The position numbers were made by a program, and so were the translations under genes. The notes under the pieces were generated by a model. The model was not told where the DNA came from, ran no database searches, and worked only from the letters and a program-made list of their open reading frames with translations. Of a stretch of 42,597 nucleotides of DNA, positions 9,025 to 42,597 are shown piece by piece (position 1 is the stretch's first letter; every line of letters begins with the position of its first letter). This DNA comes from a virus, in the IMG/VR virus record IMGVR_UViG_3300029319_000091, positions 1,697-44,293 of that record; one strand, written 5' to 3'.

Positions 9025-9533
9025 TTAATGTCGCAGGCGTTCTTGAAGTAAAGCAATTTAGAGATATTTCTAGAGAACCTAAGGTTCGCAAAAAAACCGA
9101 TCACAGAGAAAAAACTCATACTATCGCTTTAGTTCCCCCTAATTATGTTTCAACATTATGGCCGGATGTAGAAGGCCAGTTATCCAAAGCTGTTGCTAGA
9201 TCAAAAGGTAGATGGACGATCCCCTCTTTGTACGAAGCGATTGTTGGTGGTCACCAGCATCTTTGGGTTGCCTTTAACTCAGAAAAAGAAATAGACGGTG
9301 TCGGCACTACCGAATTAGTTAACTACCCAGAAAAAAGAATGCTTTGCGTTCAGTTTCTTGGAGGAAGAAACTTTAACGATTGGGTTTGGGATATGGTAGA
9401 AAAATATAATAGTTGGGCAAAAGACAACGATTGTTCAGGTATTGAAGCTACTGCAAGAGATGGATTTTGGAAATGGCTTCAACAAGACGGTTACGAAAAA
9501 TCATATGTAGTTTATGAAAAGAGGATTGACTGA
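9021..9533 (+). CDS. GNAT-like acyltransferase-fold protein
   Basis: This 170-residue protein has the layout of a divergent GNAT fold: WPDVEGQLSKAVARSKGRWT, SLYEAIVGGHQHLWVAF, strand GVGTTELVNYPEKRMLCVQF and a C-terminal WAKDNDCSGIEATARDGFWK. In related phage proteins this segment is annotated as acetyltransferase-like, but the pyrophosphate-binding RxxGxG/A loop is not obvious. Activity is therefore doubtful and a structural role is possible. It overlaps both structural neighbours by 1-4 bases, so it is expressed with the virion proteins. Confidence 0.6.
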   Translation: MINVAGVLEVKQFRDISREPKVRKKTDHREKTHTIALVPPNYVSTLWPDVEGQLSKAVARSKGRWTIPSLYEAIVGGHQHLWVAFNSEKEIDGVGTTELVNYPEKRMLCVQFLGGRNFNDWVWDMVEKYNSWAKDNDCSGIEATARDGFWKWLQQDGYEKSYVVYEKRID

Positions 9534-15900: not shown

Positions 15901-18900
15901 TTGGCCCAACCACTAGGGAAGGCGAAGTTATTCTCACTGGTGATCCGAGAGAAACGTCTAAGGTTGCTGGGGCAGAGGGTTATTATCAGCCCAAGATCAG
16001 GTCAATTTTTCTTGGTTTAGACAGGGCCATCAACGATATAAAGGCAAACAGTAGAGATGATACCCCAGAGGCTAGAAGATCTGCTCTTGCCGACACACTA
16101 GACCATGAAATTCTTCATGCAATGAGGGATCTTGATTTATGGACTGAGCAAGAATGGTCTTTACTTGAAAATCTAGTTAGAAAAAAAACACATCAAGGAA
16201 CTAATGAAACTTTTCTTGATAAAGCGCAAAGACTTTACGACGACAAAAGCGCGGTCATTCAAATGGAAGAAGCCGTTGCCGAGTTAATTCGCACAGCGAG
16301 AAAAGACAGGAGCTTTGTTACAGGCAAGCCTAGAAGTCTGATAGAAAAAATGTATGAGTTTATTGAAAAACTAAACAATGCATTAAGGGGTTCTGGATTC
16401 CAAAGCTTTAATGATATTATGGATCGCCTTGAATCAGGCGATATAGGCGCAAGAAAACGAGGAGAAATAAGAACACTCAAGTCCTTAGAAAAGAAGATAG
16501 GCGCTTTACCAGAACGAGATATCGGCAAAGAAATGGATGTTGCTGATGTATTAGAGATAGAAGAAAAAGAAAGAATCAGAAGGGAAGAAGAAGGTCTGCC
16601 AATTGATCTTTGGGAAAGCGACGAAGAATCTCAGATCTTAGCTTCAAGGATTGAAGACAGCCCTCCGAACATTATATTTGAAGTTGCCCCAGATCCAGAC
16701 AATGTTAAGTTGACATCTGAGTGGAACGAACTAGAGCCGTCTGCCAAAGAAGAAATATCTAACATTGTAAGTGAAGAAGTTGTTGGTGATTTTTTAAGCA
16801 GCATAAATGTTCCTTCTTTATTTTCAATTCAAGTTGGATCTTATCTTGAAGATACAAATCCCTCGTTTGCTGTTTCTGTAGATACAAACGATCCACTAGG
16901 GATAACCAAGCAAATTGGTTTTATGTTAAACCAGCAATCAATGATAACTGTCGCGAGTAATCCATTCCCAGGTTTAGACAAAACAGAATCTGTTATTGTT
17001 TCAGTTAATACAAACAGCCCACTAGAAATTCAAAAAATATATCAAGAGCTAAGAGGGATTACAGTTGAGGGTGACCAGCCAATAGGTGGGCAATCAACGA
17101 TTAACGGTCAAATGGTTATCTTTAATTATTCAGGCTTGCCGAATAATCAGCTTGCAGATCTGGTAGATAAAAAGCTTAATGGTGTTTATGAAGTTGCAGA
17201 AGGAGATGCATACACTGCGTTTCCAGAAAAAGAGGATTATGACTATGCGAACCCGCAAGAAGACCCCTCAGGAAATGAGGGATATATTAGGAGGCAAAGC
17301 CGTTATTATCGCACAAAGGCCCAAGAACTTCTCCAACCCAGCAAGTACCAAGCGGTTTTTGGACTTGGAAAAAAATACAGACCTGAAGATTTAACAAGCG
17401 ATACTGATGACGTTCTTTTTAGCAGAAGGAAGTCCAGCACCCCTATTGAAAGTGCAGTAGATTTAGCAAATAAAAAGTATTCTGATTACAACACAAGAAT
17501 AGAAGAAGAATTTTTTAAGCGGTTCTGGCCTAAGCTTTTGTCTGAAGTGAAGGGAACTGTTTCTACAGATAAAGTTAGAACTGCCGCTAAACGTGCAAAC
17601 AAAGACATTAAGAAATTTGTACATGATAACCCAAGGTACAGAGATTATTACAATCAGGATATGGCTGCTGTTCGCAAGCTTTTGGGAGATCACCTCAGAT
17701 CAAAGTATGGAAAGAATATTACTGATGAAGACTTGCGCCTTTATCAGTTGTTCAATGGTCTTAATTCTGCCAACACAAAACTGTCTTCCAATGTTGGAGA
17801 TGCCATAAATGTTTTTAATTTGTTTCAGGAGAAAGGGAATCTTGATGACATTGTTTTAGGTCTAAGTAAGAAAGGCAATGTCGTTATCATTGATTCGCCT
17901 TTTCAAATCTCAGGGACATCTTCTCCGATCAAGGGGCGATCCTTAAAGGCTGTTGACAGATTAATAAAACTTAACAGTAATCGAAAAAATCCTGTACAAG
18001 CGACTGTTGATTTCCTACATGAAGGGGTTCCATTAAAAGAGCTTCAGCAATTTAACAGACAGATGGGCTATAAGAGCAATGTAACTGACATCAAAGAAAT
18101 AAAATCTCTTGTCATGGATGCAACTGGACAAGACGAATTAATTCCAAGAATGTTTATTTTTGGTAAAAAAGTTGGGGCATACACATTAAATCTTACAGGA
18201 GATCATAGATATACAACTATAGATATCTGGGAGTCTCGATTCATAAGAACTTATTTTGATGATCTATTTAAAGAACGAACTGGATTGCCAGAGGTTGTTG
18301 ATGAAGGTCTGTTGTTTCAGGATTTTTCAAAAAAGTTTGGCGAAGAATATGAAAGATTAAATGGTATTAAACTAGCACCATCTGCTCTTCAGGCAATGCG
18401 CTGGTTCTATATAATAGACGCATCAAGAAGAGCTGGATATTCAGGAGCATCAACCAATGAAACAATCTCAGAAATCACAGACAGATACCTCAATCGACCT
18501 AGAGGAGAACGCAAGGAGAGCCGGAGACGCAGCGATGGAGAAGTTGCTGGCCAAGTACAAACAGAAGCAGAGAAGGCTTCAAAACAAAAGATAGACTACG
18601 ACATCCTTGAGTCAAGAATAGATGACTCTGAAAGAGCGGTTAATGATTTAAGTAACAGAAGTCCAGACAGCCCACTTCTTTCTATTGCCAATCAAAACCC
18701 AGAGATACAGAAATCTGTTTCCGATCAAACTCTTTTAGATGAAGAGCCTTTTTCTTGGCAGTCAATGAGCCACGGCCTTAAAGGATATGGAGCTTTTGAT
18801 AGATTTGTTTATCAAATACAGGACAAATTTGTTGGCTTAAAAAATGTTAGAGATCAAATTAATCAGTACAGAAAGAGATCAGGGCTTCCCCCAATACATA

Positions 18901-31325: not shown

Positions 31326-31592
31326 TCAGTGAATCTGTTCTCCTTCCATTGGGTTTTCCTGAAGTGTGTAGATCCAGCATTCAGCCGCATTCCTAGCTCT
31401 GTCAATGATGTCTTTGGGATCCGTGATCTGATAACAATCAAATATGAACATCAATAAGGCTTCGATCTCTTGGTCGCTCACATTCTTAGGTAAAGAATTT
31501 TGTATGATCTCATAGGTCTTCTCCCACTTATCATTAAATTCAGCCAGCAACTCCCGCCCATCCTGATTGATGTCTATCTTTTTGTCATTCAT
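31326..31592 (-). CDS. Small acidic protein, unknown
   Basis: This 88-residue protein (MNDKKIDINQDGRELLAEFN, then helices around SDQEIEALLMFIFDCYQITD) has an AAGGAGAACGAAAATG start context, a good SD that resembles the leader cassette of its operon. It is the last gene of the accessory minus operon and overlaps the preceding stop by 8 bases. No family recognised. Confidence 0.65.
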   Translation of the reverse strand: MNDKKIDINQDGRELLAEFNDKWEKTYEIIQNSLPKNVSDQEIEALLMFIFDCYQITDPKDIIDRARNAAECWIYTLQENPMEGEQIH

Positions 31593-31740
31593 TTTCGTTC
31601 TCCTTGTAAATTGCGATCAACTTCCATTTGAATTCACTTGGGATTATCCCATCCTTAATCAAAGCGTCGAGGACAACTCGATCAACATCGTCGTTATCCC
31701 TCTTGGATATCTCGCTAAATAATATTTCTCGTTCAATCAT
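31585..31740 (-). CDS. Short protein, unknown
   Basis: From the ATG at 31740 (GGAG seven bases upstream) this is a 51-residue acidic protein: MIEREILFSEISKRDNDDVD, then RVVLDALIKDGIIPSEFKWK and a Glu/Asn end. The ATG at 31746 would leave only one base after the SD. A strong GC hairpin lies just upstream. Probably a small helical protein; function unknown. Confidence 0.55.
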   Translation of the reverse strand: MIEREILFSEISKRDNDDVDRVVLDALIKDGIIPSEFKWKLIAIYKENENE

Positions 31741-31754
31741 ATTCATTCTCCAAG

Positions 31755-31770
31755 GGGGGCAAGCCCCCCG
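31755..31770 (-). other. GC hairpin between two operon genes
   Basis: On the minus strand GGGGGG-CTTG-CCCCCC forms a perfect 6-bp hairpin just after the VWA gene stop and directly before TTGGAG (the SD of the next gene). There is no U-tract, so it is more likely a transcript-stabilising or translation-tuning hairpin than a terminator. The GAAA and CTGATGA boxes of the ribozymes are absent. Confidence 0.55.
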
Positions 31771-31775
31771 ATTAG

Positions 31776-32990
31776 TTAAATTAAAACCACTTCCCCGAAA
31801 GGTTCGCACCCCTCGAAGTAAGGCTCTCTACCATTGCTGGCCCAGATCACTGGGTAGCTTGGCACCTCGAAGTTAACACCGTGGTATGCATCAGGGCCAA
31901 CGTCACCATACCCATCAGTGAAATAGATCAAAGCGTGAGGAAAGATCTGCTCATGTTCTACCCAGTTAAAAACTGGGTTAAATGCGGTGCCGCCCCCGCC
32001 ATAGAACTTAAGCTCGATATCTTCGCCCCTATCGAAAGAGACCGCCTTTCTCACCTCGCTATCACAGTAGACTATGTGAATTCTGGTCGGGTTGATCTCA
32101 TCCACAATATCCTGAGTGTGTGTGCCGATCTCAGCAAGCTCGACCAGAGTTAGTGAGCAAGAGGTATCGATACCGATAACCAGCTCCCCATCAGGTGTGG
32201 TGAGGTTCCCAGGTAGGATCAATCCCTGATGGACAAACCGCCTGTTCACGCTGGCATAGCTTTGGTCAGTGATCACCTGATCATGCAAGTGATCCTTGAT
32301 GATCTGATACCACGGCTGCACTGCACCCTTGTGGGAATCGATCACATCCCTGATCTGAGCATCAGAATTACCCTTGCCGATCTTCTTTTCAATCTGAGCG
32401 GCCTGATGTACCTCTTCTGCGATAGAGACTTCTTCTTCTGATATCCCAGCAGCATCAAGCACCTTGCCCTGATCATCCACCGCATCAAGCACTTCGCCCC
32501 ACTCACCGTCAGAGATCGAGTATTCGCCTTCACTGTCATCAGGATCCCCAGTGCCGTCCTCAGGGTTCTCAGCCAGCTTCCTCTTAAGATCCGCATAGAT
32601 GCGCTCAGAAGCCCAGCCAATATACTTAGAGTCAATCAGCCCATCCTCAGGCATCGTGAAACCAGCGGATACTAGACCTCCATTGATAGCGTAATCGCAG
32701 GCTTCGTTCCAGAGCTTGTGTTCGTAGTTGCCTATGAGCTTCCTTGTATGGTGACAGTACGAAACGTGAGCGCACTCGTGTGCCAAAACAAACACGATCT
32801 CTGGGACAGTCTTCTCGACAACCCAATCGGGGTTGTAGAAGATATGCTTACCATCAGTAGCCATCGTGCGAACTTGGTTAGTGGACACGATCTCCATCCG
32901 ATAGAGCAGGGCCGTATAGAATGGATGGTCTCGAACCATCCTTTTCTTGGCCTTAGCTATTGTACGTTCAGCTATAAATGCATTGTTCAT
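31776..32990 (-). CDS. DUF2201-type metallopeptidase + VWA-like protein
   Basis: This 404-residue protein has two domains. The N-terminal putative metallopeptidase (about 5-190) carries HECAH (71-75) in VLAHECAHVSYCHH and the NEACDYAING motif typical of this family. A linker rich in Asp and Glu follows. The C-terminal VWA-like domain has a MIDAS motif DTSCS (about 274-278), GGGGTAFNP and ALIYFTDGYGD, which bind Mg2+. This is the DUF2201 (VWA-like) architecture, usually paired with a MoxR AAA+ ATPase, as found two genes upstream. It starts 10 bases after the coiled-coil gene. Confidence 0.88.
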   Translation of the reverse strand: MNNAFIAERTIAKAKKRMVRDHPFYTALLYRMEIVSTNQVRTMATDGKHIFYNPDWVVEKTVPEIVFVLAHECAHVSYCHHTRKLIGNYEHKLWNEACDYAINGGLVSAGFTMPEDGLIDSKYIGWASERIYADLKRKLAENPEDGTGDPDDSEGEYSISDGEWGEVLDAVDDQGKVLDAAGISEEEVSIAEEVHQAAQIEKKIGKGNSDAQIRDVIDSHKGAVQPWYQIIKDHLHDQVITDQSYASVNRRFVHQGLILPGNLTTPDGELVIGIDTSCSLTLVELAEIGTHTQDIVDEINPTRIHIVYCDSEVRKAVSFDRGEDIELKFYGGGGTAFNPVFNWVEHEQIFPHALIYFTDGYGDVGPDAYHGVNFEVPSYPVIWASNGREPYFEGCEPFGEVVLI

Positions 32991-32999
32991 ATCGCCCCC

Positions 33000-33893
33000 T
33001 TAATCGTAGAAGCCAGAGAGAGAATCGACGATGTTTTTAGCATCCTTGATTGTCTCTTTGCGTTTGTCTTCAGATTCTCTTAGCTCATCAGGGTTCGCGT
33101 TTCTGAGTTTGCTAAGGATCTTGTTGGCGGCAATATCGAGCTGATCGTCACCGAATATATTCAGATCGGGCAGTATGTCGGCCAGCTCTTTAACATTCGC
33201 TATCGTGGAGTTGGCAAACTTAGAAGGTTTAGTCGCCCCCTCTTCGATCACGCCGTGACGCTCCAGACCCTCGATCATTGTCTCCAACACGCCCACAACC
33301 CTATCTCGGACTTTGTCTTGAGCGACTTTGACCTTTCGAGTGATCTCTTCTTCGGCATCTTCCTTGATCTTTTTGATTTTAGAATTGGGAAGCTTTACTC
33401 GAATATCATTTGAGTCGTCTATATTCTTGAGCTTGTATGTGATCGAGTATGCGTCAGCAATGTCATCCACACTGGGGTAGAAGTCTGGATCGAACTTATC
33501 GCCCAGCCTACTCTCTAGCTCCTTAAGCTTGGTTGGCCATTCTTGTTTAAGCTCACGCTCAAGATCAATTAGGTGATCCTGATACTCTTCAATTTTCCGC
33601 TCGACTTTGTCGAGAATGTCAGCGGTCACTAAATGCTCCCCCTCAGTCCAAGGTAGAAGCATCTTTCTAACCACGTTGTTTCCGACCCGACCTATCGTTT
33701 TGTCGAGGGCCTTGATTACCGGCACGTCAGCCATGTTCTGATGCACAGAAAAAGCCTTGTGATCTGGGTTACCATCCTTGTCGAAAACATTGTGCTGGAT
33801 AGCGAGTGCAGTTGCAGCTTCCTTGTCGTTCTTGGAATGCTGCCACTTCGTACACTTGATTTTAATGAGCAATGCGCTCTCTTGTATTGTCAC
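33000..33893 (-). CDS. Coiled-coil partner of MoxR/VWA pair (DUF3150-like candidate)
   Basis: This 297-residue protein from GTG 33893 has an N-terminal beta part (ESALLIKIKCTKWQHSKNDK), a middle with VIKALDKTIGRVGNNVVRKM, then long helices (DILDKVERKIEEYQDHLIDL and following, about 90-125 and 175-215). Position between the MoxR ATPase and the VWA protein matches the middle protein of three-gene MoxR modules, often annotated DUF3150; the family assignment is by position and helix pattern only. Its SD is the AACTAGGAG cassette formed by the last codons of the MoxR gene. Confidence 0.6.
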   Translation of the reverse strand: MTIQESALLIKIKCTKWQHSKNDKEAATALAIQHNVFDKDGNPDHKAFSVHQNMADVPVIKALDKTIGRVGNNVVRKMLLPWTEGEHLVTADILDKVERKIEEYQDHLIDLERELKQEWPTKLKELESRLGDKFDPDFYPSVDDIADAYSITYKLKNIDDSNDIRVKLPNSKIKKIKEDAEEEITRKVKVAQDKVRDRVVGVLETMIEGLERHGVIEEGATKPSKFANSTIANVKELADILPDLNIFGDDQLDIAANKILSKLRNANPDELRESEDKRKETIKDAKNIVDSLSGFYD

Positions 33894-33896
33894 TTC

Positions 33897-34976
33897 TTAT
33901 TCTCCTAGTTGGTTATCAATTTTGAACTGTATGTACTCCTGGGTTTCTTTGAAATCAGGATCACGGCCTATCGCAAGGGCAAACAGAACCGCTATCAGCT
34001 CATCGTCATATTTGGCAAGCCACTTGATAGCATTGCCGATGTTGGATCTCTCGCACTTTGCTGCAAGCTGAGCGCAAACCGCATAGATCGTGTTGATCTG
34101 GGATGGCACTGGCACACTGTCAGGATCGTCCAAAATCTGAGCAAAGCTTGGAATATCCCTCATTACCTTCAGGAAAGATGAGAACTCTGAGCCTGCTCCA
34201 ATTCCCACTGCCCCTATGATCGAGTCGGCCTCGATCTTCTTAGGTAGACCACACTTGATGATCTCAGAAACGAACTCCCACGAGCGTGGAGTAGCTACTG
34301 CTATGTGTCCCTTAGGGGCACCCCCGTCGAGGTACTCGTGGAGCAGTCCTCCATTCTCAGAGCTTGGTGCCCCTCGAAACTGAATGAATGCGATCACCTC
34401 GTGAGCCACGCCATTTTGGTATGCCCACTCAGTCCACTCAGACACACTAGGCACCACGTTAAAGTGCGGAGCAAAGCGATTCATCAGGGCTGGATCCACG
34501 CGACCATGTACCCCAGCACCATCTTCAGGACGATTAGAGGCGGCTACTATGTGCCAGCCTTTGGGGTGTATGTACGAGCCTAATCTACCGTCAGTCATTA
34601 GCTGGTAGAGACTAGCCTGTACTGAAGCCATCCCCAGCAATATCTCATCAATGAAGGTGATACCGAACTCACCGTCCCTCTCGACGTTAGGTAGCCAGCG
34701 TGGGGGAGCAAAATCGGTCTCATGGTCAATGATCTCTGGAACCCCTCGTGTATCGACTGCGTCGATCTGTGAGGTTCTAAGGTCTAGAAGGCCCCATTGG
34801 TTGCCAGTGGTCTCAGAGAGAGAAGCCACTATCGACTTAACGATAGCGGATTTTGCCACTCCATAGGCACCCCACAAAAAAGGATGCAGTTTTGTCCTCG
34901 GATCTTCTCTTAAGACAAATGTCTCAATAGCCGTGGCCGCTGACTGTGTTGTTACTGTGCTTATGTTAAAAGCCAT
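33897..34976 (-). CDS. MoxR-like AAA+ ATPase
   Basis: This 359-residue protein is a MoxR-family ATPase. Walker A is GAYGVAKS (36-43), with Ala where Gly normally precedes Lys. Walker B is ITFIDEIL, and a MoxR-type insert GLLDLRTSQIDAVDTRGVPE precedes it. Sensor 1 and arginine-finger region are VAASNRPEDGAGVHGRVDPA and LMNRF. MoxR ATPases remodel or insert cofactors with VWA partners; the VWA protein is two genes downstream. The ATG at 34976 has AGGAG seven bases upstream and follows a hammerhead ribozyme. Confidence 0.88.
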   Translation of the reverse strand: MAFNISTVTTQSAATAIETFVLREDPRTKLHPFLWGAYGVAKSAIVKSIVASLSETTGNQWGLLDLRTSQIDAVDTRGVPEIIDHETDFAPPRWLPNVERDGEFGITFIDEILLGMASVQASLYQLMTDGRLGSYIHPKGWHIVAASNRPEDGAGVHGRVDPALMNRFAPHFNVVPSVSEWTEWAYQNGVAHEVIAFIQFRGAPSSENGGLLHEYLDGGAPKGHIAVATPRSWEFVSEIIKCGLPKKIEADSIIGAVGIGAGSEFSSFLKVMRDIPSFAQILDDPDSVPVPSQINTIYAVCAQLAAKCERSNIGNAIKWLAKYDDELIAVLFALAIGRDPDFKETQEYIQFKIDNQLGE

Positions 34977-35003
34977 ATTCAAACTCCTAGTTATAGTTAG
35001 TTA

Positions 35004-35063
35004 TCCAAGACCCCCGATAGGGGGTTTCGAGGCGGGAACTACCCGCCCAGCTCATCAGTTGGA
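35004..35063 (-). ncRNA. Hammerhead ribozyme HHR1 (type I)
   Basis: Read on the minus strand: TCCAA (35063-35059), core CTGATGA (35058-35052), stem II GGCGGG/CCCGCC with loop TAGTT (35047-35031) closed by a G-C pair with a CT bulge and a G-U pair, then GAAA (35028-35025). Stem III is CCCCC-TATC-GGGGG (35024-35011), followed by TC and TTGGA (35008-35004), which re-pairs with TCCAA as stem I. All invariant core bases are present. Cleavage is predicted between 35009 and 35008. It lies between the stop of the 35071 gene and the MoxR start. Confidence 0.9.
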
Positions 35064-35070
35064 ATGTCTG

Positions 35071-35319
35071 CTAATCCTCCTTTTTGAAAAAATTATCAAT
35101 AGTTTCTTCAGTCTTATCGGCCATTACTAACTCTAATTTCAACATCAGTTTGATATCGTCGAAAACTTCTTCGCTTATGAACTTGTGTTCAAGAGCCATA
35201 TTAAGAAGCCTAAGGTCATGGTTAATTTTACTTTTCCAAGTAGAAAAATCTGATTTGATCTGACCTTCTCGCGATAAAGCGTTTCGGCTAAACACTTCGA
35301 TATATTCTTCTTCAGTCAT
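35071..35319 (-). CDS. Small helical acidic protein, unknown
   Basis: This 82-residue protein (MTEEEYIEVFSRNALSREGQ, then helices rich in Leu, Glu and Lys, ending ETIDNFFKKED) starts one base after the preceding stop, with AAAGGAGG upstream. Its stop (TAG 35073-35071) is 8 bases before the first ribozyme. No recognisable domain. Confidence 0.65.
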   Translation of the reverse strand: MTEEEYIEVFSRNALSREGQIKSDFSTWKSKINHDLRLLNMALEHKFISEEVFDDIKLMLKLELVMADKTEETIDNFFKKED

Positions 35320-35874
35320 CTACTGATCCTCCTTTAGTTCTTCAATTTGCCTAATCACTGAGTCGATACAATCGATACAGTAGTAGCGGTCACCGATCTC
35401 TTCGCCTTGATCGTCGAAAGGCACGTTGCCCTCGAATGAATAGACCCCACACCGAGCGCAGGGATCACGAGTGGTTTTGTACTCATCATTCGCCCTCTCG
35501 ATCTCAGACAACAGGTCATCGCCTGGGCCTGGGTTTTTCTGGATCTGATCGTGGAGCCTTTCATGCTCGACTATGAACTTAGCCGCTGGATAGTTGCGCT
35601 GCTTGAGCAGTTTGCCGATCTGCTCCCCGATGGGAGTCATAGCGTGAACTTCATCTTCATCATTCAATCTCTTGAATCCGATTCTCTCCATGATGCTCGT
35701 GGCCTCATCGCAATAACTGTTAAACCGATCCTGAGAAGCCTCGGTGTACCGCTCATCGCCGTTCTCTGCGACCTCGGTTATCAGGGGGCCATCCCCGTAT
35801 TCTTCAGCCAGAATGACTGCCAGATCGGAATAGATCTCTATCCACTGTTCATCCGACACTATTAAATCGTTCAT
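35320..35874 (-). CDS. Protein with C-terminal zinc ribbon, unknown
   Basis: This 184-residue acidic protein has a helical N-terminal two thirds (WIEIYSDLAVILAEEYGDGP, EATSIMERIGFKRLNDEDE) and a C-terminal CxxC...CxxC pair (CARC at about 140-143; CIDC at about 168-171), which should bind zinc. A GGAGG lies upstream of its ATG. I recognise no specific family; the zinc module could contact nucleic acid or a protein partner. Confidence 0.7.
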   Translation of the reverse strand: MNDLIVSDEQWIEIYSDLAVILAEEYGDGPLITEVAENGDERYTEASQDRFNSYCDEATSIMERIGFKRLNDEDEVHAMTPIGEQIGKLLKQRNYPAAKFIVEHERLHDQIQKNPGPGDDLLSEIERANDEYKTTRDPCARCGVYSFEGNVPFDDQGEEIGDRYYCIDCIDSVIRQIEELKEDQ

Positions 35875-35876
35875 AG

Positions 35877-36089
35877 TTAAATGTCCTCCCTGAGTGTGTT
35901 GTATGGGCTGACCGCCTCAAGAGCTGCTCTCTTGGGATCTTTGCCTGTGTTGAATAGATAGATGGCACTATCCCAATTGATGAACTCAGAACGGTAGTCG
36001 GCCCTCTGGGCTGCGTCCTGATAGTCGTCTCTGGTCTTGAGTGCATCGTGATAGCTGGCCATCCATTTGGCCCGATCTCGTTTTCTCAT
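35877..36089 (-). CDS. Small protein, unknown
   Basis: This 70-residue basic protein (MRKRDRAKWMASYHDALKTR, then DYQDAAQRADYRSEFINWDS) is Trp, Tyr and Arg-rich, probably helical. AACTAGGAG lies nine bases before its ATG, and a variant ribozyme (36116-36173) sits just upstream. Family unknown. Confidence 0.65.
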   Translation of the reverse strand: MRKRDRAKWMASYHDALKTRDDYQDAAQRADYRSEFINWDSAIYLFNTGKDPKRAALEAVSPYNTLREDI

Positions 36090-36115
36090 TATCCAATTCT
36101 CCTAGTTAGCGGGTT

Positions 36116-36173
36116 GTCATCTTCAAGGTGCAAGGTTCCCAGCCTACGCACGACCCCCAGAGGGGGTTTCGAC
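36116..36173 (-). ncRNA. Hammerhead-like element HHR3, altered core
   Basis: On the minus strand this element starts in the stop codon of the 36173 gene as GTC, GAAA (36170-36167), stem III CCCCC-TCT-GGGGG (36166-36154), then TC and a closed stem I (GTGC...GCAC, 36151-36128, with an inner AGG/CCT pair). GAC (36118-36116) closes with GTC. This is the type II order of HHR4. The bases where CTGATGA should be read CTTGAAGAT, so cleavage is doubtful: a decayed or variant copy. Confidence 0.45.
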
Positions 36174-36403
36174 TATGCTGCGCGGGTAGCTGGCCCCCTT
36201 AGATCAAAACTGATCGAGTATTGATGGTCTCCCAGATCTCTCTTGAGTATGTACTGCTCGATCACTTCCTGACCCCTAAAGAAACTGTCAGCAAAGTAAG
36301 AAAACACCAAGTGATCATTGTGAGAATCTCTGACAGTGATCTCGCAGAGGTTGTCATCTAGCAGCACGAGTTTGATAAAGAAAAAACGGTAAGGTAATGG
36401 CAT
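36173..36403 (-). CDS. Small protein, unknown
   Basis: From the ATG at 36403, which overlaps the preceding stop (TAATG), this is a 76-residue protein: MPLPYRFFFIKLVLLDDNLC, then EITVRDSHNDHLVFSYFADS and a basic end. Probably a small beta-rich domain. Its stop TAG is also the first part of the hammerhead-like element HHR3. Confidence 0.55.
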   Translation of the reverse strand: MPLPYRFFFIKLVLLDDNLCEITVRDSHNDHLVFSYFADSFFRGQEVIEQYILKRDLGDHQYSISFDLRGPATRAA

Positions 36404-36615
36404 TAGATGTGTCCTCCAGATATTTTCAGACCCGCTGCGAAGGAGGCAAAATAAGCTCCCCAGAGGCCCCAGTTGATCGCTGCGATCTCTAGAGTGCTTA
36501 GGTCGGTGTTTGCCTCCAGCCATAGGTCAATGACCCCCAGACCGGCGGCAGTGACTACGATGCTCATGACTACAAATAGAGTGATAAACGTGAGTGATAA
36601 GATTAGAAATTTCAT
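36403..36615 (-). CDS. Two-segment small membrane protein
   Basis: This 70-residue protein has two hydrophobic segments (about 2-29, FLILSLTFITLFVVMSIVVT; about 45-64, IAAINWGLWGAYFASFAAGL) separated by an acidic loop, so it should sit in the inner membrane. Its leader carries the AACTAGGAG cassette and the best hammerhead ribozyme. Function unknown; a holin, superinfection or host-takeover protein would fit the size. Confidence 0.65.
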   Translation of the reverse strand: MKFLILSLTFITLFVVMSIVVTAAGLGVIDLWLEANTDLSTLEIAAINWGLWGAYFASFAAGLKISGGHI

Positions 36616-36638
36616 TTTCAGTTCTCCTAGTTTTAGTT

Positions 36639-36696
36639 TTCCAAGACCCCCATAAGGGGGTTTCGATCAATCACCAATTGATCTCATCAGTTGGAA
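36639..36696 (-). ncRNA. Hammerhead ribozyme HHR2 (type I, canonical)
   Basis: On the minus strand: TTCCAA (36696-36691), CTGATGA (36690-36684), stem II GATCAAT-TGGTG-ATTGATC (36683-36665, 7 bp perfect), GAAA (36664-36661), stem III CCCCC-TTAT-GGGGG (36660-36647), TC, then TTGGAA (36644-36639), which pairs with the first six bases. Every invariant hammerhead base is present, including the GTC cleavage triplet. Cleavage is predicted between 36645 and 36644. It starts two bases after the TAG of the 36698 gene and ends 7 bases before the next AACTAGGAG. Confidence 0.95.
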
Positions 36697-36697
36697 T

Positions 36698-37051
36698 CTA
36701 CAAGGCCCTCCTAAATGTGATTAGGCCGTGTTCGTAGTACTTGACCTCTATCTGGTCTCCCTCGTTAAAGATCTCACCAATGCGCTTCTCGTGGAGATCT
36801 ATGATGGGCCTGCTTGCAGTCACCGCTCGATCACCGCCCAAGCTAGGACAAAGCTCAATCGACTCAGGGCCGTAGTAGACCTTGTATGTCTCCCCAGCGT
36901 GGAACTGAGCAGCCTCAAGCTTTTTGCCCTCGATCCATATTCGGTATGCCCTCTTGGTCTTCTTGACCTTGGTTTTTCCAGAGGCTACTGGCTCTACAAA
37001 ATTAACCACTTCCGACCTTCTATCTTCTAGCTCTTGTTTTATCTGATCCAT
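36698..37051 (-). CDS. AbrB/SymE-like small protein (candidate)
   Basis: From the ATG at 37051 (AGGAG eight bases upstream) this is a 117-residue protein. The middle RAYRIWIEGKKLEAAQFHAG followed by ETYKVYYGPESIEL looks like the swapped-hairpin pattern of SymE/AbrB-type proteins ('R..G..L..AGF..G..'), and a second strand set (EKRIGEIFNEGDQIEVKYYE) repeats the theme. I recall relatives beside PAPS-reductase-like genes in other phages, as here. DNA binding is possible but unproven. Confidence 0.55.
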   Translation of the reverse strand: MDQIKQELEDRRSEVVNFVEPVASGKTKVKKTKRAYRIWIEGKKLEAAQFHAGETYKVYYGPESIELCPSLGGDRAVTASRPIIDLHEKRIGEIFNEGDQIEVKYYEHGLITFRRAL

Positions 37052-37075
37052 TTTCAATTCTCCTAGTTGTGACTT

Positions 37076-37131
37076 GTCTCATCAGCGATCAAGTAGTCAT
37101 CTTGGCCGGACTCCCCGAAGGGAGTTTCGAC
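37076..37131 (-). ncRNA. Hammerhead ribozyme HHR4 (type II)
   Basis: On the minus strand: GTC (37131-37129), GAAA (37128-37125), stem III CTCCC-TTCG-GGGAG (37124-37111, a stable UUCG loop), TC, a closed stem I (CGGCCAAG / CTTGATCG around ATGACTA, 37108-37086, one mismatch), CTGATGA (37085-37079), then GAC (37078-37076), which pairs with the first GTC as a short open stem II. This is the circularly permuted type II form. The 3-bp stem II is its weak point. Cleavage is predicted between 37109 and 37108. It starts inside the stop codon of the PP-loop gene. Confidence 0.75.
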
Positions 37132-38084
37132 TATTGGTACTGACTCTCTAATAACTGACCCAGTGAGGGCCTCTGAGGTGCGCTCTCAGAGTCGATCTTC
37201 TTCTCCCACTCATCTATCGAGAGAAGCTCACCGTCTACCTTGGCGGTGAATAGACGCGCTCCCTTGGCCCATGAGTCGTGTTGCCATTGGCCGTCAGGTG
37301 CCCTCCATCCGATCTTACAATGATCGCCTACATCACCTTTGCCCTCGGTCACTACTGCACTCCCAGTTTTCCATTCTTTGGGTCTGGTCAAGCTGAGTGG
37401 CTTGCCTGCATCTATCCAAGCCTGATGCTTTCGAGGTGACTCCTCTTGGAACCGCTCCTCGACCAGCTTTATGAGATCCCATCTCTGAGGATCCTGTCTG
37501 GCCTCGTAGATCTCTTCTTTACTCAGGAAAGGACAGAATACGCATGATGACTTAGGCACATCAAAGTCATATGACTTGAGAAGCTCGATACAGCTCTCTC
37601 TGGTCTCATCCAAATCGATAAGCGGGTACTCATACTTGGCCTTGTCATTCTTAGGCTTGGTAAATCGCTTCTTACGGTAAAGCTCATTCGCCTCTATGCC
37701 GATTAGGTAGGTGATCTCTGAGTCTGGGTATGTCTGCTTGGCCCACTTGGCGATCACCTCACCTTTAAACTTGGCTGAGCAAACATGGGAGCCGCCGATC
37801 ATCACTGGGACGATCCCAAGTCTGGTGACCCACTGGGTTATGGTCTCGCCTTCTTTGCTGACGATATCGAAGGGTAGATCGTGTTCTTCGCAGAGCTTCT
37901 GAAAACGCCTGACATTAGCGTATGTCTCGGCAGATTCAGCTCCAGTATCACTAAAGACAACATGGTCTATAGCTAGATCCTCATGGTACAAATGTATCAG
38001 TAGGATCGCGCTTGAATCCACGCCTCCCCCGAAAGACAAGATCCTCTTTCGAGAGAAGTAGTGGTGGTCTATTTGTTCGTTCAT
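37131..38084 (-). CDS. PAPS-reductase/PP-loop ATP pyrophosphatase family protein
   Basis: From the ATG at 38084 (AACTAGGAG upstream) this is a 317-residue protein. The PP-loop SFGGGVDSSA (17-26) binds ATP. FSDTGAESAETY, a HVCSAKFKG Cys site and a later SSCVFCPFLS cluster are typical of phosphoadenosine-phosphosulfate-reductase-family proteins in phages and DndC-like enzymes. These activate a substrate by adenylation or move sulfur; the real substrate is unknown. It is the first gene after the operon promoter. Chemistry on DNA or tRNA, or sulfur metabolism, are alternatives. Confidence 0.82.
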   Translation of the reverse strand: MNEQIDHHYFSRKRILSFGGGVDSSAILLIHLYHEDLAIDHVVFSDTGAESAETYANVRRFQKLCEEHDLPFDIVSKEGETITQWVTRLGIVPVMIGGSHVCSAKFKGEVIAKWAKQTYPDSEITYLIGIEANELYRKKRFTKPKNDKAKYEYPLIDLDETRESCIELLKSYDFDVPKSSCVFCPFLSKEEIYEARQDPQRWDLIKLVEERFQEESPRKHQAWIDAGKPLSLTRPKEWKTGSAVVTEGKGDVGDHCKIGWRAPDGQWQHDSWAKGARLFTAKVDGELLSIDEWEKKIDSESAPQRPSLGQLLESQYQ

Positions 38085-38149
38085 AATCAGTCTCCTAGTT
38101 TGTGTTGGCCTGCTTGTTAGTGAAATCACTTTGCCTTGGGCCTGAGCGG

Positions 38150-38177
38150 ATTATACTCAATTACGCATTACGGTCAA
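38150..38177 (-). promoter_or_regulatory. Sigma70-like promoter of the ribozyme operon
   Basis: On the minus strand -35 TTGACC (38177-38172) and -10 TATAAT (38155-38150) are separated by 16 bp, the best promoter match in the window. Transcription should begin near 38143 and leave a leader of about 60 bases before the PP-loop gene. The 13-bp direct repeats cover the -35 box and spacer. Confidence 0.8.
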
Positions 38178-38195
38178 CACTATACGCATTACGGT
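38162..38195. repeat. 13-bp direct repeats over the promoter
   Basis: TACGCATTACGGT occurs at 38162-38174 and 38183-38195, exactly 21 bp apart (two helical turns, same DNA face); a partial third copy (TACGGTGCATT) follows. The first copy overlaps the -35 box and spacer of the minus promoter, so a bound regulator would block or modulate it. The spot is also upstream of the small terminase gene. Confidence 0.7.
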
Positions 38196-38267
38196 GTACG
38201 GTGCATTCCAGCGGGGATCCTGAGATCGTAGAATCAAAGTCAGTTAATTATTGATCAGGGAATAGTA

Positions 38268-38744
38268 ATGGCAGGCAAACAAATGAGTCCGAAACGTCTT
38301 CATTTCGCAAGGTGCGTTGCCTCAGGGATGACCTATGCAGATTCCTATCGTGAGGCTTTTGAGCCTGCTGACTCAACTACCTCTGCAAGCATCCATACAC
38401 TAGCTTCGAGGCTCATGGCAGAGGTTGAGATTAGGTCAAGGGTAGACCTGCTGATCAAAGCCAGAGAGCGGGCAGTAGTAGATAAAGCGGTCACAGATCG
38501 TGAGAAGGTCACTGATCACTTAAGGGAGGCTCTAGCCGGAGGAGAGACTGATCAACTAAGGCTAAGGGCTGCTGAGTTGCTAGGTAAAGCTAGTGGTCTA
38601 TTCAGTACAGAAGTCAACGTGACTACTCAAGAGAGAGACTCCTCCCAAGTAGCTAGTGAGATCCAAGAGAAGTTAGCTGGATTGCTAGGATCCAAGGAGA
38701 TCGATCAAGAAGAAGCAGAGTCCGACCACGAGAATGTTCACTGA
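38268..38744 (+). CDS. terS: Terminase small subunit
   Basis: This 158-residue protein has an N-terminal helix-turn-helix region typical of small terminases (SPKRLHFARCVASGMTYADS, YREAF) and a helical oligomerisation part (DREKVTDHLREALAGGETDQ), with an acidic tail. It recognises the packaging site and feeds DNA to the large subunit encoded 0.4 kb downstream. AGGGA precedes the ATG; a TAGAAT box at 38229-38234 is a possible -10. The 0.4-kb gap to the large subunit, with its own operators, is unusual. Confidence 0.8.
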   Translation: MAGKQMSPKRLHFARCVASGMTYADSYREAFEPADSTTSASIHTLASRLMAEVEIRSRVDLLIKARERAVVDKAVTDREKVTDHLREALAGGETDQLRLRAAELLGKASGLFSTEVNVTTQERDSSQVASEIQEKLAGLLGSKEIDQEEAESDHENVH

Positions 38745-38966
38745 GGCGTAAACCAGGATGAAAATCCAAGAGGATTTTCACCTGGGGGGCACCCCCCTGA
38801 ACGCATACGCGCACACATATACATATACATAGTAATCCACTCAAATAATTACAACTTTTTCTAAAATTACACCTGGGTTTACTTAAGCTCTCCCTTTTTT
38901 TCTCAGAAAACACCCTAGGAGTCCCATATGCCCAAAAATTTTTTTTAAAATTTTCGAGTTATTCTG
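38745..38966 (+). other. Intergenic hairpins after terS
   Basis: No gene is seen. CCAGG-AT-GAAAATCC-AAGA-GGATTTTC-A-CCTGG (38753-38785) forms a 13-bp stem with a small internal loop. GGGGGG-CA-CCCCCC (38084+700: 38784-38789 with 38792-38797) follows and overlaps it, so the two compete. An alternating CACACATATACATATACAT stretch and a T/A run (38936-38954) follow. The first stem may end or protect the terS transcript, but it has no U-tract. Confidence 0.5.
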
Positions 38967-38994
38967 TTGCTTTCCTTGTCAATACCCTTAATAT
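38967..38994 (+). promoter_or_regulatory. Promoter candidate for terL and late genes
   Basis: TTGCTT (38967-38972) and TAATAT (38989-38994) are 16 bp apart. Transcription would start near 39001, immediately before the palindromic operator region. An overlapping TTGTCA/TAAACT pair (15 bp) is an alternative. Confidence 0.4.
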
Positions 38995-39011
38995 GCTAAA
39001 CTGTTAGTTTC

Positions 39012-39137
39012 AAGTTATGACTTAGTAGTCTACTTAGCTCAGTCATAACTTATTCTTAGTAGAACAATTAATGCCCTGACGGGCATATAGTTAAATGAAC
39101 ATAACCTAGTGATCACTTAGCTTAGTAGACTACTTAG
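39012..39137. promoter_or_regulatory. Palindrome cluster (operators) before terL
   Basis: AAGTTATGACT (39012-39022) and AGTCATAACTT (39041-39051) are perfect 11-bp inverted arms around the site CTTAGTAGTCTACTTAG (39021-39037). A second site CTTAGTAGACTACTTAG lies at 39121-39137, 9 bases before the terL ATG, next to AGTGATCACT (39108-39117). ATGCCC-TGAC-GGGCAT (39071-39086) is an extra perfect hairpin. The 17-mers match those before the primase gene at 15 of 17 positions or nearly so. The last site overlaps the ribosome-binding region. Confidence 0.65.
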
Positions 39138-39145
39138 GGGAACCT

Positions 39146-40657
39146 ATGCCCTTAAAAGACCGTATAGATCCAAACCTTTTAAAGAACGTAGAAAACCTTC
39201 CTGTATCAGATCAGGAGGAACTTCTTAAGTTAATAGAAGAGCTGGAGGAGGCTGAAAGAAAAGAAGCCGCCCAAGACTCCTTTATGAACTTTGTGAAGTA
39301 TGCGTGGCCTGCGTTTATTGAAGGCAGGCACCACAAGATCATGGGTAACGCCTTTGATCGTGTTGCATCAGGTGAGTTGAAGCGTTTAATCGTTAATATG
39401 CCGCCAAGGCATACTAAATCAGAGTTTGCATCGTATTTATTACCGGCATGGTTTTTGGGCAGATTCCCAGAAAAAAAGATCATACAGACCGCCCATACCG
39501 CAGAACTCTCCGTTGGATTTGGTAGAAAGGTTCGTAACCTAGTAGATAGTGATGATTTCAAGAAGGTATTTTCTAAAGTTGCCTTAAGGGCCGACTCCAA
39601 GGCAGCAGGCCGTTGGAGTACCAATGAAGGTGGTGAATACTTCGCTATCGGTGTTGGTGGTGCTGTAACAGGAAAAGGTGCAGATCTCCTAATTATCGAC
39701 GACCCTCACAGCGAGCAAGAAGGTCAAAGCGCAGACCCGTCAGTTTTTGACAAGGTCTATGAATGGTACACATCCGGCCCTAGGCAGCGTTTACAGCCAG
39801 GTGGAGCTATCGTTGTGGTGATGACACGATGGCATAAGCGTGATTTGACGGGACAGATACTTAAATCATCACTACAAAGATCCGGCACAGATGAGTGGGA
39901 GCTGATCGAGTTTCCGGCAATTATGCCCTCAGGGAACCCCTTGTGGCCTGAGTTCTGGCCAAAAGAGGAATTGGAGTCGTTGAGAAACGAACTTCCTTCC
40001 CCTAAATGGAATGCCCAGTACCAGCAGAATCCTACCTCAGAAGAGGGCGCACTGGTTAAAAGGGAATGGTGGCGTGAATGGGAGGAGGATCGGCCACCCC
40101 CTTGTGAGTTCATTATACAGTCCTGGGATACAGCATTTTTAAAGACCCAGCGTTCAGACTACTCAGCCTGTACAACGTGGGGTGTGTTCTACAAGACAGA
40201 TGATGAGGGCCTTCAACAGCCTAATATCATACTAATGGATTCATTTAAGGAGCGTCTTGAGTTCCCAGAACTTAAGAAAAAAGCCTATGAATACTGGTCT
40301 GAGTGGCAACCTGATGCCTTTGTGGTGGAGGCTAAAGCCGCTGGGACACCGTTGATATTTGAATTAAGGGCGATGGGTATCCCTGTAAGCGAATACACGC
40401 CTTCGAGGGGAAACGACAAAATAGCCCGTGTGAATGCCGTTGCAGATCTATTTGCATCAGGGATAGTATGGGCACCCAAACTGCGCTATGCAGAGGAAGT
40501 GATCGAGGAATTTGCGGCATTTCCTGCCGGAGAGCATGACGATCTGGTGGATTCATCCACACAGGCGCTGCTTAGATTCAGGCAGGGAGGCTTTTTGAAG
40601 CTAAACTCTGACGAAGAGGACGAGCCTTTTTACCAGAGAAAAGCAAACTACTACTAG
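39146..40657 (+). CDS. terL: Terminase large subunit
   Basis: This 503-residue protein is the packaging ATPase and nuclease. Walker A-like NMPPRHTKSE (84-93) and Walker B LLIIDDP (181-187) are clear, with VMTRWHKRDL as the following motor motif. The nuclease domain has the acidic triad regions SWDTAF, VVEAKAAG and HDDLVDS. It pumps DNA into the prohead through the portal (encoded from 41985). It begins the late plus-strand block under a palindromic operator region. Confidence 0.95.
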   Translation: MPLKDRIDPNLLKNVENLPVSDQEELLKLIEELEEAERKEAAQDSFMNFVKYAWPAFIEGRHHKIMGNAFDRVASGELKRLIVNMPPRHTKSEFASYLLPAWFLGRFPEKKIIQTAHTAELSVGFGRKVRNLVDSDDFKKVFSKVALRADSKAAGRWSTNEGGEYFAIGVGGAVTGKGADLLIIDDPHSEQEGQSADPSVFDKVYEWYTSGPRQRLQPGGAIVVVMTRWHKRDLTGQILKSSLQRSGTDEWELIEFPAIMPSGNPLWPEFWPKEELESLRNELPSPKWNAQYQQNPTSEEGALVKREWWREWEEDRPPPCEFIIQSWDTAFLKTQRSDYSACTTWGVFYKTDDEGLQQPNIILMDSFKERLEFPELKKKAYEYWSEWQPDAFVVEAKAAGTPLIFELRAMGIPVSEYTPSRGNDKIARVNAVADLFASGIVWAPKLRYAEEVIEEFAAFPAGEHDDLVDSSTQALLRFRQGGFLKLNSDEEDEPFYQRKANYY

Positions 40658-40664
40658 GATTATT

Positions 40665-41009
40665 ATGTCTGACAAGAAAAAACCCGCCTACTTCAGGCTA
40701 ATGAAGCTTAGAGAAGAAAAAGAAGCAAAGAGACGCAAGCCTACAAGCGGCTTAAAAGGCACAAAGCTGGATCGTGAAAGGGGTGATTCCTCTAAGTCAT
40801 TGGATCCTAAATCGTTAACAGCGTCAGGAAGAAAGGCCGCTGGCAGAACAAAACAGAGTAGACGAGGTACAGCCAAGGTAAAAAAGGCTAGACCAGCGTA
40901 TACCGAGGTCGAAAGACCACCTACAACAACTGTTGCCCATGAAAAAAGGCACCGTAGTATGAAAACGGGCGGCAGGGTCAGGATGGACGGTACAGCAAAA
41001 CCCAGATAA
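40665..41009 (+). CDS. Small basic protein, unknown
   Basis: This 114-residue Lys/Arg-rich, probably disordered protein (KKKPAYFRLMKLREEKEAKR, then a Ser/Arg-rich middle and KTGGRVRMDGTAKPR) lies 7 bases after terL. Similar basic small proteins between terminase and portal genes are common in marine phages as I remember them. It might bind DNA or be a scaffold-type helper; no domain is seen. Confidence 0.65.
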   Translation: MSDKKKPAYFRLMKLREEKEAKRRKPTSGLKGTKLDRERGDSSKSLDPKSLTASGRKAAGRTKQSRRGTAKVKKARPAYTEVERPPTTTVAHEKRHRSMKTGGRVRMDGTAKPR

Positions 41010-41017
41010 GGAGCCTG

Positions 41018-41707
41018 ATGGCTTTCCTGCAAAGCAATATCCCGCATTTTAAATGCTGGGTTAGGAAAGAATACACCCACAACCACCAGAAATATCATGG
41101 TGAGTTTATTCATGCGATGGCTATCGCGGTTACCTCGATGCCTTGTAGATGCCTGAGTTTCCAGTTGATATTCACTGGAGCAGAGACCTATGACACCGAT
41201 GAACCGAATATTCATGGTGGCGCGATGTGGGCCAGGATGCCGATTACAGCTTTAGTGGCAGATACCCCATTTGAGGAATGGCCTGAACCGATGGAGGTGT
41301 GGGCAGCACAACCCTGGGATTGCTCGTCAAGGACACACAGTGTCTATGTCTTGGACAGGGCAACCCCGTGTCCTTGGCTTGCAAAGATCGATAACAAGCT
41401 TTATCCGGCAAAATACTACTTTACGGTAGATTATACGGACTCAGAGATAGCGGATGACCCAGCGCAACACAAGCAGTCTCATGTCATGGAGTTGCTGGAT
41501 GCCGGCAAATGGACAGGGAATATTGTGGCATTACCCAACAATCGTGTGAGGGTGACACACCCCGCATGGTTTGAGACAGGAGAAGGTGCGCCGGATTTCA
41601 GGCCATCACAGCATATTCATTACAGTAAGTCAGATCTAGACTACACGCTGGATGTAAATAAGGTTTTTAACAACTTATACGCAGAGGATTTAGATGAAGA
41701 AATCTAA
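41018..41707 (+). CDS. Conserved late protein between terL and portal, unknown
   Basis: This 229-residue, Trp/Pro/His-rich protein contains FKCWVRKEYTHNHQKYHGEF, HGGAMWARMPITALV, WAAQPWDCSSRTHSVYVLDR and CPWLAKIDNKLYPAKYYFTV. The overall look is beta-rich and globular. I recall highly similar proteins at this same place in many uncultured marine phages, with no known function. Its end overlaps the next gene by 14 bases. Confidence 0.75.
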   Translation: MAFLQSNIPHFKCWVRKEYTHNHQKYHGEFIHAMAIAVTSMPCRCLSFQLIFTGAETYDTDEPNIHGGAMWARMPITALVADTPFEEWPEPMEVWAAQPWDCSSRTHSVYVLDRATPCPWLAKIDNKLYPAKYYFTVDYTDSEIADDPAQHKQSHVMELLDAGKWTGNIVALPNNRVRVTHPAWFETGEGAPDFRPSQHIHYSKSDLDYTLDVNKVFNNLYAEDLDEEI

Positions 41708-41984
41708 AGGTTACATGAGAGGCGGCAAGACAAAAGGAATGGCCGCTGGCGGAAAGCTTAAGATGGTTGAAAAGGACGGGAAACAGGTTCCGTTTTTTGC
41801 TGCCGATGGTAAAGGTAAAATGGCTGGGGGTGGATCTGTGCCCTCTACAAAAGGTTATTTTAAAGGTGGAAAGACAAAAGGTATGGCTGCTGGCGGCAAG
41901 ATGAAATCTAAAGGCACCGCTGGCGGAGGAGTCGCCAGAGGCAGTGGCGCAGCCAGACCCCAAGCATTTAGGAAGAATGGCTAA
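41694..41984 (+). CDS. Gly/Lys-rich repeat protein
   Basis: This 96-residue protein contains an internal duplication: KGYMRGGKTKGMAAGGKLK and KGYFKGGKTKGMAAGGKMK, separated by about 40 residues. The rest is Gly, Ala and Lys-rich and should be disordered and positively charged. It overlaps the preceding gene and abuts the portal ATG. Possible DNA- or capsid-associated peptide; function unknown. Confidence 0.7.
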   Translation: MKKSKGYMRGGKTKGMAAGGKLKMVEKDGKQVPFFAADGKGKMAGGGSVPSTKGYFKGGKTKGMAAGGKMKSKGTAGGGVARGSGAARPQAFRKNG

Positions 41985-42597
41985 ATGGCTGTAGATAAGT
42001 CAATGACAGGAAACCCTCTAGGCTACCTAGATCAGGAGCAAGATGCCTTGGAGATAGAGATCGAGAACCCTGAGTCGGTATCTATTGAGACCGAAGATGG
42101 AGGGGTAATCCTTGACTTTGATCCAGATGCTTCCACGCTCTATGAGCTTGGCAGGCTTCCCCATGATGCAAATCTGGCAGAGGTTATTGACGATAACGAA
42201 CTACACTCAATTGCCTCAGAGCTAATTGGGTTATTTCAGTCAGACAAGGAAAGCAGATCGGATTGGGAAAGATCCTATGTGGATGGCCTAGATTTGCTTG
42301 GTTTAAAGCATGAAGACAGGACAACCCCTTGGGATGGCGCTTGTGGCGTATTTCACCCCCTTCTTTCTGAGTCGGTAATTAAGTTTCAGTCTCAGGCGAT
42401 ACAGGAGATATTCCCAGCGGGAGGCCCTGTAAAAACATCAATAGTCGGCAAGATGACCGATGAAAAGGAAAAGCAGGCTCTTAGGGTTCAGGACTACCTA
42501 AACTATCTGTTAACAGAACAGATGACTGAGTATCGATCAGAGACAGAGAAAATGTTGTTTTCTTTGCCTTTGGCGGGTAGCGCCTTTAGAAAAGTTT
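41985..42597 (+). CDS. Portal protein, N-terminal part (P22-type), cut by window
   Basis: The frame from ATG 41985 is open to the window edge (about 204 residues). After an acidic N-terminus it reads SDKESRSDWERSYVDGLDLL, then TTPWDGACGVFHPLLSESVI and KFQSQAIQEIFPAGGPVKT, the pattern of P22-like portal proteins. The dodecameric portal forms the vertex through which terminase pumps DNA. It directly follows the Gly-rich protein gene. The C-terminal two thirds lie outside the window. Confidence 0.88.
   Translation, partial: MAVDKSMTGNPLGYLDQEQDALEIEIENPESVSIETEDGGVILDFDPDASTLYELGRLPHDANLAEVIDDNELHSIASELIGLFQSDKESRSDWERSYVDGLDLLGLKHEDRTTPWDGACGVFHPLLSESVIKFQSQAIQEIFPAGGPVKTSIVGKMTDEKEKQALRVQDYLNYLLTEQMTEYRSETEKMLFSLPLAGSAFRKV

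Follow-up and report, generated by a model that had tools for sequence, protein, structure and literature searches.

A serial array of hammerhead elements at the gene junctions of a phage operon and its probable role in self-processing of the operon RNA

Organisation of the leftward operon

The DNA analysed here (the window, 42,597 nt) corresponds to positions 1,697 to 44,293 of the IMG/VR phage record IMGVR_UViG_3300029319_000091, that is, 42.6 kb out of 48.3 kb. One of its operons, read leftward, carries four hammerhead ribozyme elements within 2.1 kb, all on the minus strand and placed between genes in the manner of the serial arrays described for prophages. The same array is present on a second contig of 81.9 kb, with 99.65% identity over window positions 32929-42597.

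The genes of the operon, all on the minus strand, code first for a phosphoadenosine-phosphosulfate (PAPS) reductase-like protein, then for six small orphans, and finally for an AAA ATPase, a protein of unknown function and a DUF2201 metallopeptidase/VWA protein. The first gene is that of the PAPS reductase-like protein (37131..38084; phrog_424, E=2e-26). It is followed by gene B (36698..37051), an orphan of 117 aa with no match in PHROG or Pfam, by genes C and D (36173..36615), which overlap by 1 nt with no ribozyme between them, and by genes E, F and G (35071..36089), separated by 2 and 0 nt and likewise free of ribozymes. The last block (31776..34976) consists of the AAA (MoxR-like) ATPase, h33000 and the DUF2201 metallopeptidase/VWA protein (phrog_1297, phrog_1314, PF13203), with spacers of 3 and 9 nt and no ribozymes. 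A distant blastn search of the operon against GenBank phages gave no match. Between the window (34194-34219) and contig IMGVR_UViG_3300037962_000140 (1266-1277) a difference of approximately 14 nt was observed within the ATPase gene, the contigs being otherwise identical; it may represent an indel, an assembly difference or masked bases.

Upstream of the first gene lies a sigma-70-like promoter, TTGACC-16-TATAAT (38150..38177, minus strand), with 11/12 consensus matches. It is the sole strong promoter match on the minus strand within 31500-38300, and the overall number of promoter-like sites is not above the level of shuffled sequence. Gene order together with this single promoter match suggests that the operon is probably read as one transcript.

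Detection of the four elements

The elements are referred to as E4, E3, E2 and E1 in order of transcription. Two covariance models, R1 (type II) and R2 (type I), were trained on hammerheads of other phages with the sequences of the window excluded, and were searched against the whole window on both strands with filters off; the E-values given are rough, calibration having been short. Nothing significant beyond the four elements was found in the window by either model, with weak R1 matches merely overlapping E3 and E1. When 60 shuffled copies of the window were scanned for hammerheads under lax settings, 10 matches were obtained in total. The sequence-only reading of this DNA had proposed four hammerhead or hammerhead-like elements, and the presence of four hammerhead elements is confirmed, all of them having been found by these independent models; E2, however, is not a clean example, as two single-U insertions interrupt its core.

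At the gathering score, Rfam reported no match in the window. In E-value mode E3 was reported as Hammerhead_1 with 27 bits against a gathering score of 34, and RAGATH-1 matches to E3 and E1 were far under threshold; neither E4 nor E2 was reported, even at an E-value of 10. No element of the window reached the gathering score of RF00163, RF02276 or RF03152, the scores obtained being 27.0, 29.9 and 26.8 bits where 34 and 56.3 are required. As Rfam thresholds miss the elements of the window, standard annotation would miss the array.

Structure and predicted cleavage sites

E4 (37067..37132, type II; R1 56.1 bits, E=5e-13) has its predicted cut at GUC^C (37109/37108). The UAG stop overlaps its stem II, and loop I (UGACU) can form a pseudoknot of 5 bp with AGUCA immediately 3' of stem II. 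E3 (36638..36697, type I; R2 47.1 bits, E=2e-12), with its predicted cut at GUC^U (36645/36644), begins directly after a UAG stop, and its minimum-energy fold is the three-way junction (z=-2.75). For E1 (35002..35065, type I; R2 37.9 bits, E=1.9e-9; predicted cut GUC^U, 35009/35008), stems I-III are largely present in the minimum-energy fold (z=-2.25), stem II contains a 2-nt CU bulge following its first pair, and 5 bp can form between UAGUU of loop II and AACUA of the 3' tail. These three elements possess CUGAUGA, GAAA and GUC intact, in agreement with the hammerhead core (CUGANGA, GAAA, A15.1-U16.1 and NUH), and three helices were found in each (from the stem lengths of the scanner for E3 and E4, and from the folds for E3 and largely for E1).

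E2 (36107..36174, type II; R1 35.7 bits, E=1.5e-7; predicted cut GUC^G, 36152/36151) has a divergent core. It reads CUUGAAGAU in place of CUGANGA, with an extra U at position 4 and a further U after A9, and so does not form the uninterrupted core. Stems I, II and III are present in its minimum-energy fold, yet this is no better than that of shuffled sequences (z=0.2), and the pairing between loop and tail is restricted to 4 bp, one of them G-U. No insert of ligand-binding size was found in E1 to E4.

In comparison with known families, E4 and E2 share with RF02276 (type II, with a pseudoknot between loop I and the tail) the open stem II, the closed stems I and III and GUC, and E4 its 5-bp pseudoknot; they depart from it in the two core insertions of E2 and in escaping Rfam. 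E1 and E3 share with RF00163 (type I) and RF03152 (RAGATH-1) the open stem I and the intact CUGAUGA and GAAA. They differ in scoring under the gathering thresholds, in a longer stem II whose loop can pair with the 3' tail, and in a poor match to the extra 5' hairpin of RAGATH-1.

Layout of the gene junctions

The distance from stop codon to element is -1 nt for E4 and E2, 0-1 nt for E3 and approximately 5-8 nt for E1. Past each element, at 6-11 nt, lies the Shine-Dalgarno (SD) motif AACTAGGAG, followed by a start codon: at 37060..37068 for gene B (start 37051), 36624..36632 for gene C (start 36615), 36099..36107 for gene E (start 36089) and 34984..34992 for the ATPase gene (start 34976), all on the minus strand. 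A hammerhead is present in 4/4 spacers of 79-94 nt and in 0/5 of 9 nt or less, the ribozyme-free junctions within C-D, E-F-G and ATPase-h33000-VWA measuring -1, 2, 0, 3 and 9 nt. None of the terminator-like sites of the region coincides with any of the four stem III hairpins.

The first gene is preceded by AACTAGGAG (38092-38100, minus strand) with no ribozyme ahead of it, and ACTAGGAG occurs without a ribozyme both before this gene (38099) and before the gene after the ATPase (33909, where the spacer is 3 nt). As the motif also precedes these two genes, it is not specific to the ribozymes: it is the preferred SD of the operon and no part of the ribozyme. The arrangement described from the sequence alone, in which the elements occupy the four main spacers close to the upstream stop and are followed by an SD and a start codon, holds at all four junctions on measurement. 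The further idea of a fixed module of ribozyme and SD is contradicted by the two ribozyme-free genes, and that of ribozymes separating genes applies to blocks, as C-D, E-F-G and ATPase-h33000-VWA remain joined.

Recurrence of the layout in other phages

A sample of other loci was obtained from two pattern scans of viral contigs (at least 120 stretches each), and the counts given from it describe the sample and not prevalence. The scanner found at least 449 hammerheads in the sampled loci and a single one in shuffled copies. Where a locus had three or more, all lay on one strand, with up to nine per locus, and many of the sampled arrays are called by Rfam itself at the gathering score. Among the matches listed, 125 of the 293 non-redundant hammerheads had a stop within 12 nt and an SD and start 15-35 nt away (0.75% for random same-strand positions), and 280 of the 293 had GUC as cut site. 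In this search for serial hammerheads in viral contigs, of the kind suggested with the original reading, the excess of the layout over chance was statistically overwhelming among hundreds of phage hammerheads.

Two of these arrays led to cultured Streptomyces phages, where model R1 found 12 hammerheads in Paedore and 9 in R4. In Paedore, 9/9 spacers of 71-121 nt and 0/9 junctions of less than 30 nt contain a hammerhead; in addition, a 299-nt spacer has two, and spacers of 60 and 255 nt have none. In R4 (L251), the annotated small open reading frames gp75.1, gp67.1 and gp60.1 sit on hammerheads (3898-3999, 6855-6947 and 9227-9310), and the annotated starts of gp76, gp72 and gp81 overlap hammerheads; these calls are likely annotation errors. 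Gene callers, like Rfam thresholds, should be expected to overlook such arrays.

The position of the stop codons raises the question of whether the ribozymes cut as switches, cleavage at each junction being modulated by ribosomes terminating on the upstream gene, by ions or by ligands. In the sampled elements the stop falls in stem I or the core of 67/122 type I hammerheads and overlaps stem II of 65/164 of type II, so that a ribosome ending translation there would sit on the ribozyme, and salt-tuned variants of phage hammerheads are known. Such overlap would also be expected from tight packing alone, however, and the elements of the window lack an insert that could accommodate a ligand. Complementarity between loop and SD is at chance (type II 2.39 against 2.35 permuted, type I 1.93 against 1.85), by which sequestration of the SD by a ribozyme loop is rejected in aggregate. 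Regulated switching is therefore considered unlikely, and constitutive self-processing of the operon RNA is preferred.

Evidence favouring selection for cutting

The catalytic core is near-invariant in the sampled elements while the stems vary: no core substitutions were seen save 2 U4C, and insertions occur almost exclusively after A9. An extra nucleotide between A9 and stem II is present in 27 non-redundant elements of other phages (25 U, 2 A), of both types I and II, compared with 210 canonical ones, and in none of the shuffles; besides E2, carriers include L011, L086, L111, L124, L137, L177, L183, L192, L195, L196, L209, L230, L232, L251 and L260 (601-665). Insertions of 1-2 nt after A9 have been mentioned previously (PMC10085705). 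The U4 insertion of E2 was not seen in any other non-redundant element. Two hammerhead-like sequences on the minus strand, L267 at 4564 and L272 at 5307, have U opposite U at 10.1/11.1, a mismatch reported to be tolerated (PMC3088659).

Pairing consistent with a hammerhead's contact between stems I and II, tertiary or as a pseudoknot, was found in both types. Pairing between loop I and the tail of type II elements occurs in 68 cases against 14.5 by permutation, and that between loop II and the tail in the type I family of the window exceeds chance expectation (p=0.009, from eight of nine elements). At orthologous junctions, a strict hammerhead is kept in 177/196 non-self comparisons. Nearly all of the 14 non-keeping comparisons listed represent the A9-insertion variant of the core; in two, L058 and L080, an additional gene stands in its place.

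The type of hammerhead can change at a junction. The one after the PAPS reductase is of type II in the window and of type I in L081 and L122, ruling out that this junction stays type II in relatives. All three permutations occur in a single operon of L081, in the order III, I, II, I, I, and all but the last of these hammerheads are followed by that locus's own repeated SD form, CGGAGA..CCTATG. Ahead of the ATPase gene of L261, whose protein is 41% identical, the hammerhead core is UUGAUAA, the C3-G8 pair having been replaced by U3-A8 in a compensatory change; a core with C3U/G8A is cited as active (PMC3088659). This hammerhead has a stem II bulge at the same place as that of E1. Constancy at orthologous junctions, type swaps and the compensatory core change speak for selection acting on cleavage at the junction, and together with the rigid stop-ribozyme-SD layout and up to 12 units per operon they point to junction cutting as the function selected.

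The same data bear on the idea that the repeated hammerhead and SD segments serve mainly for gene shuffling at the DNA level, through short homology at junctions, or are selfish relics in decay, with cleavage of the RNA as a mere by-product. This would accord with the variation between relatives of the genes between ribozymes while the ribozymes persist, with the greater likeness of elements within genomes than between them (type I identity 0.75 against 0.68) and with the degenerate appearance of E2. It accounts poorly for a core that is almost invariant amid variable stems, for loop-tail pairing of type II so far above chance and for type swaps, which would keep cleavage at a junction and not its sequence, and we regard it as improbable, more so than switching. 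Selection for self-cleavage of the operon RNA agrees better with these observations.

Relation to known systems

A ribozyme next to an SD is known from the glmS ribozyme of Gram-positive bacteria, which lies just upstream of the SD, cuts its own mRNA and leaves a 5'-hydroxyl (5'-OH). It differs from the array of the window in its fold, its dependence on a metabolite and its single site in the 5' leader, and does not separate an operon serially.

Clustered prophage hammerheads that flank single genes or blocks were described by Perreault et al. in 2011 (PMC3088659, Fig. 3) in C. scindens, A. caulinodans and A. tumefaciens, the last with a triple array at ardA, and it was proposed that they cut long phage transcripts down to mRNAs of operons or of single genes. 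Tandem arrays underwent cleavage in vitro; that of A. tumefaciens, the triple one, did so in E. coli as well (PMC3088659). Like these clusters, the array of the window consists of serial hammerheads around single genes or short blocks of a phage operon with small variable genes; unlike them, it fills every real spacer of an operon on a phage contig with four elements, two of type I and two of type II, one of which has a doubly inserted core. The sequence-only reading is borne out as regards a same-strand series at the gene junctions of an operon that has just one strong promoter match, and its claim of novelty is not, the serial array, its proposed role and its cleavage having been known since 2011 (PMC3088659).

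Beyond that work, the stop/SD layout and the spacer rule are quantified here over hundreds of cases. Further additions are that permutations can replace one another at a junction, that the A9 insertion recurs and that tractable phages carry such arrays. No later papers on the stop-ribozyme-SD layout were found among open-licence papers. A review of 2017 (PMC6155905) noted neighbouring hammerheads on either side of small phage open reading frames that are not conserved, and listed the role of phage hammerheads as an open question of the field. This question is directly testable in R4 and Paedore, which are cultured with laboratory hosts and carry large arrays.

Proposed self-processing of the operon RNA

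Self-processing of the operon RNA is the best explanation of the array and, in our judgement, a probable one; from sequence comparison we infer that in infected cells cutting takes place at E1, E3 and E4 and that its purpose is to separate the messages and tune their stability. The sequences themselves, their placement at junctions, the repeated occurrence of the layout and its upkeep in relatives are demonstrated directly. One promoter would give a polycistronic RNA with self-cleaving hammerheads as spacers between blocks. Each ribozyme would fold upon transcription and cut at its own GUC, E2 being doubtful, and translationally coupled genes would have neither spacer nor ribozyme. The upstream message would end approximately 20-60 nt past its stop with the G/C-rich stem III hairpin (5'-GAAAC-CCCC-loop-GGGG-UC), bearing a 2',3'-cyclic phosphate, and the message downstream of the cut would begin with a 5'-OH approximately 30-60 nt ahead of the start codon. 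Predicted products are a PAPS-reductase mRNA of approximately 1.0 kb, messages of 464 nt for B, 493 nt for C-D and 1143 nt for E-F-G, and an ATPase-VWA message. The likely benefit would be defined ends and a decay rate for each block with no extra promoters or terminators.

Stem III is approximately 80% G+C with mostly GNRA or UUCG-type loops in sampled elements that were not chosen for it, and a hairpin of this kind would be expected to resist 3' exonucleases at the message end. Cutting by RNase E through its 5'-end-dependent route is poor on 5'-OH ends, and E. coli seems to be without a kinase for 5'-OH RNA ends (PMC4191395). In a halovirus, a mapped transcript 5' end coincides with a hammerhead site.

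Several observations weigh against this explanation. A 5'-OH gives no protection from direct entry by RNase E (PMC4191395). The nested minimum-energy fold of E4, from which the pseudoknot is left out, differs from the hammerhead, its three helices being given by the scanner and the model only. E2 may be weak or dead, poor activity being expected of its two insertions from precedents given in PMC3088659. Relatives that lack ribozymes and keep gene order and expression had been named at the outset as a finding that would count against the proposal, and such relatives were in part encountered. In a sample selected by terL, independently of ribozymes, a hammerhead is present in 9/29 loci of relatives whose upstream sequence extends over 2.5 kb or more (the strict scanner alone gave too low a prevalence, and the models added L260, L261, L267 and L268), and none was found within 9 kb of terL in four GenBank relatives. 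The array is patchy, dispensable over evolution and not essential to gene order.

The products of cleavage could also be rejoined, reversal of the hammerhead reaction or host RtcB turning the units between two hammerheads into circular or re-spliced mRNAs; genes do have hammerheads on both sides, and 5'-OH and 2',3'-cyclic phosphate ends are the exact substrates of RtcB. This is very improbable: spliced or circular products of tandem arrays were sought and none found (Perreault 2011, PMC3088659), and the reading of circular mRNAs is weakened by the absence of phage RtcB from 20 array-phage records (control positive in 9/14 genomes), though a host ligase may take its place.

Taken more broadly than the window, self-cutting operons may be in wide use among phages, having originated or spread on many occasions. 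A stop-hammerhead-SD spacer of approximately 80 nt would be the default between coupled blocks, permutations would be interchangeable provided that the junction is cut, and 5'-OH messages with hairpin 3' ends would escape 5'-monophosphate-dependent decay. This generalisation is advanced tentatively, as plausible though short of likely.

Other features of the window

Matches of the ATPase suggested an N4-like (Schitoviridae) placement, which is unsupported by terL; the nearest terL in GenBank are those of Pelagibacter phage HTVC027P-like phages. A protein of 2913 aa is encoded at 12930-21671 on the plus strand, and its last approximately 950 residues match very large phage proteins of unknown function, phrog_14770, phrog_616 and phrog_10691 (2793-3925 positions).

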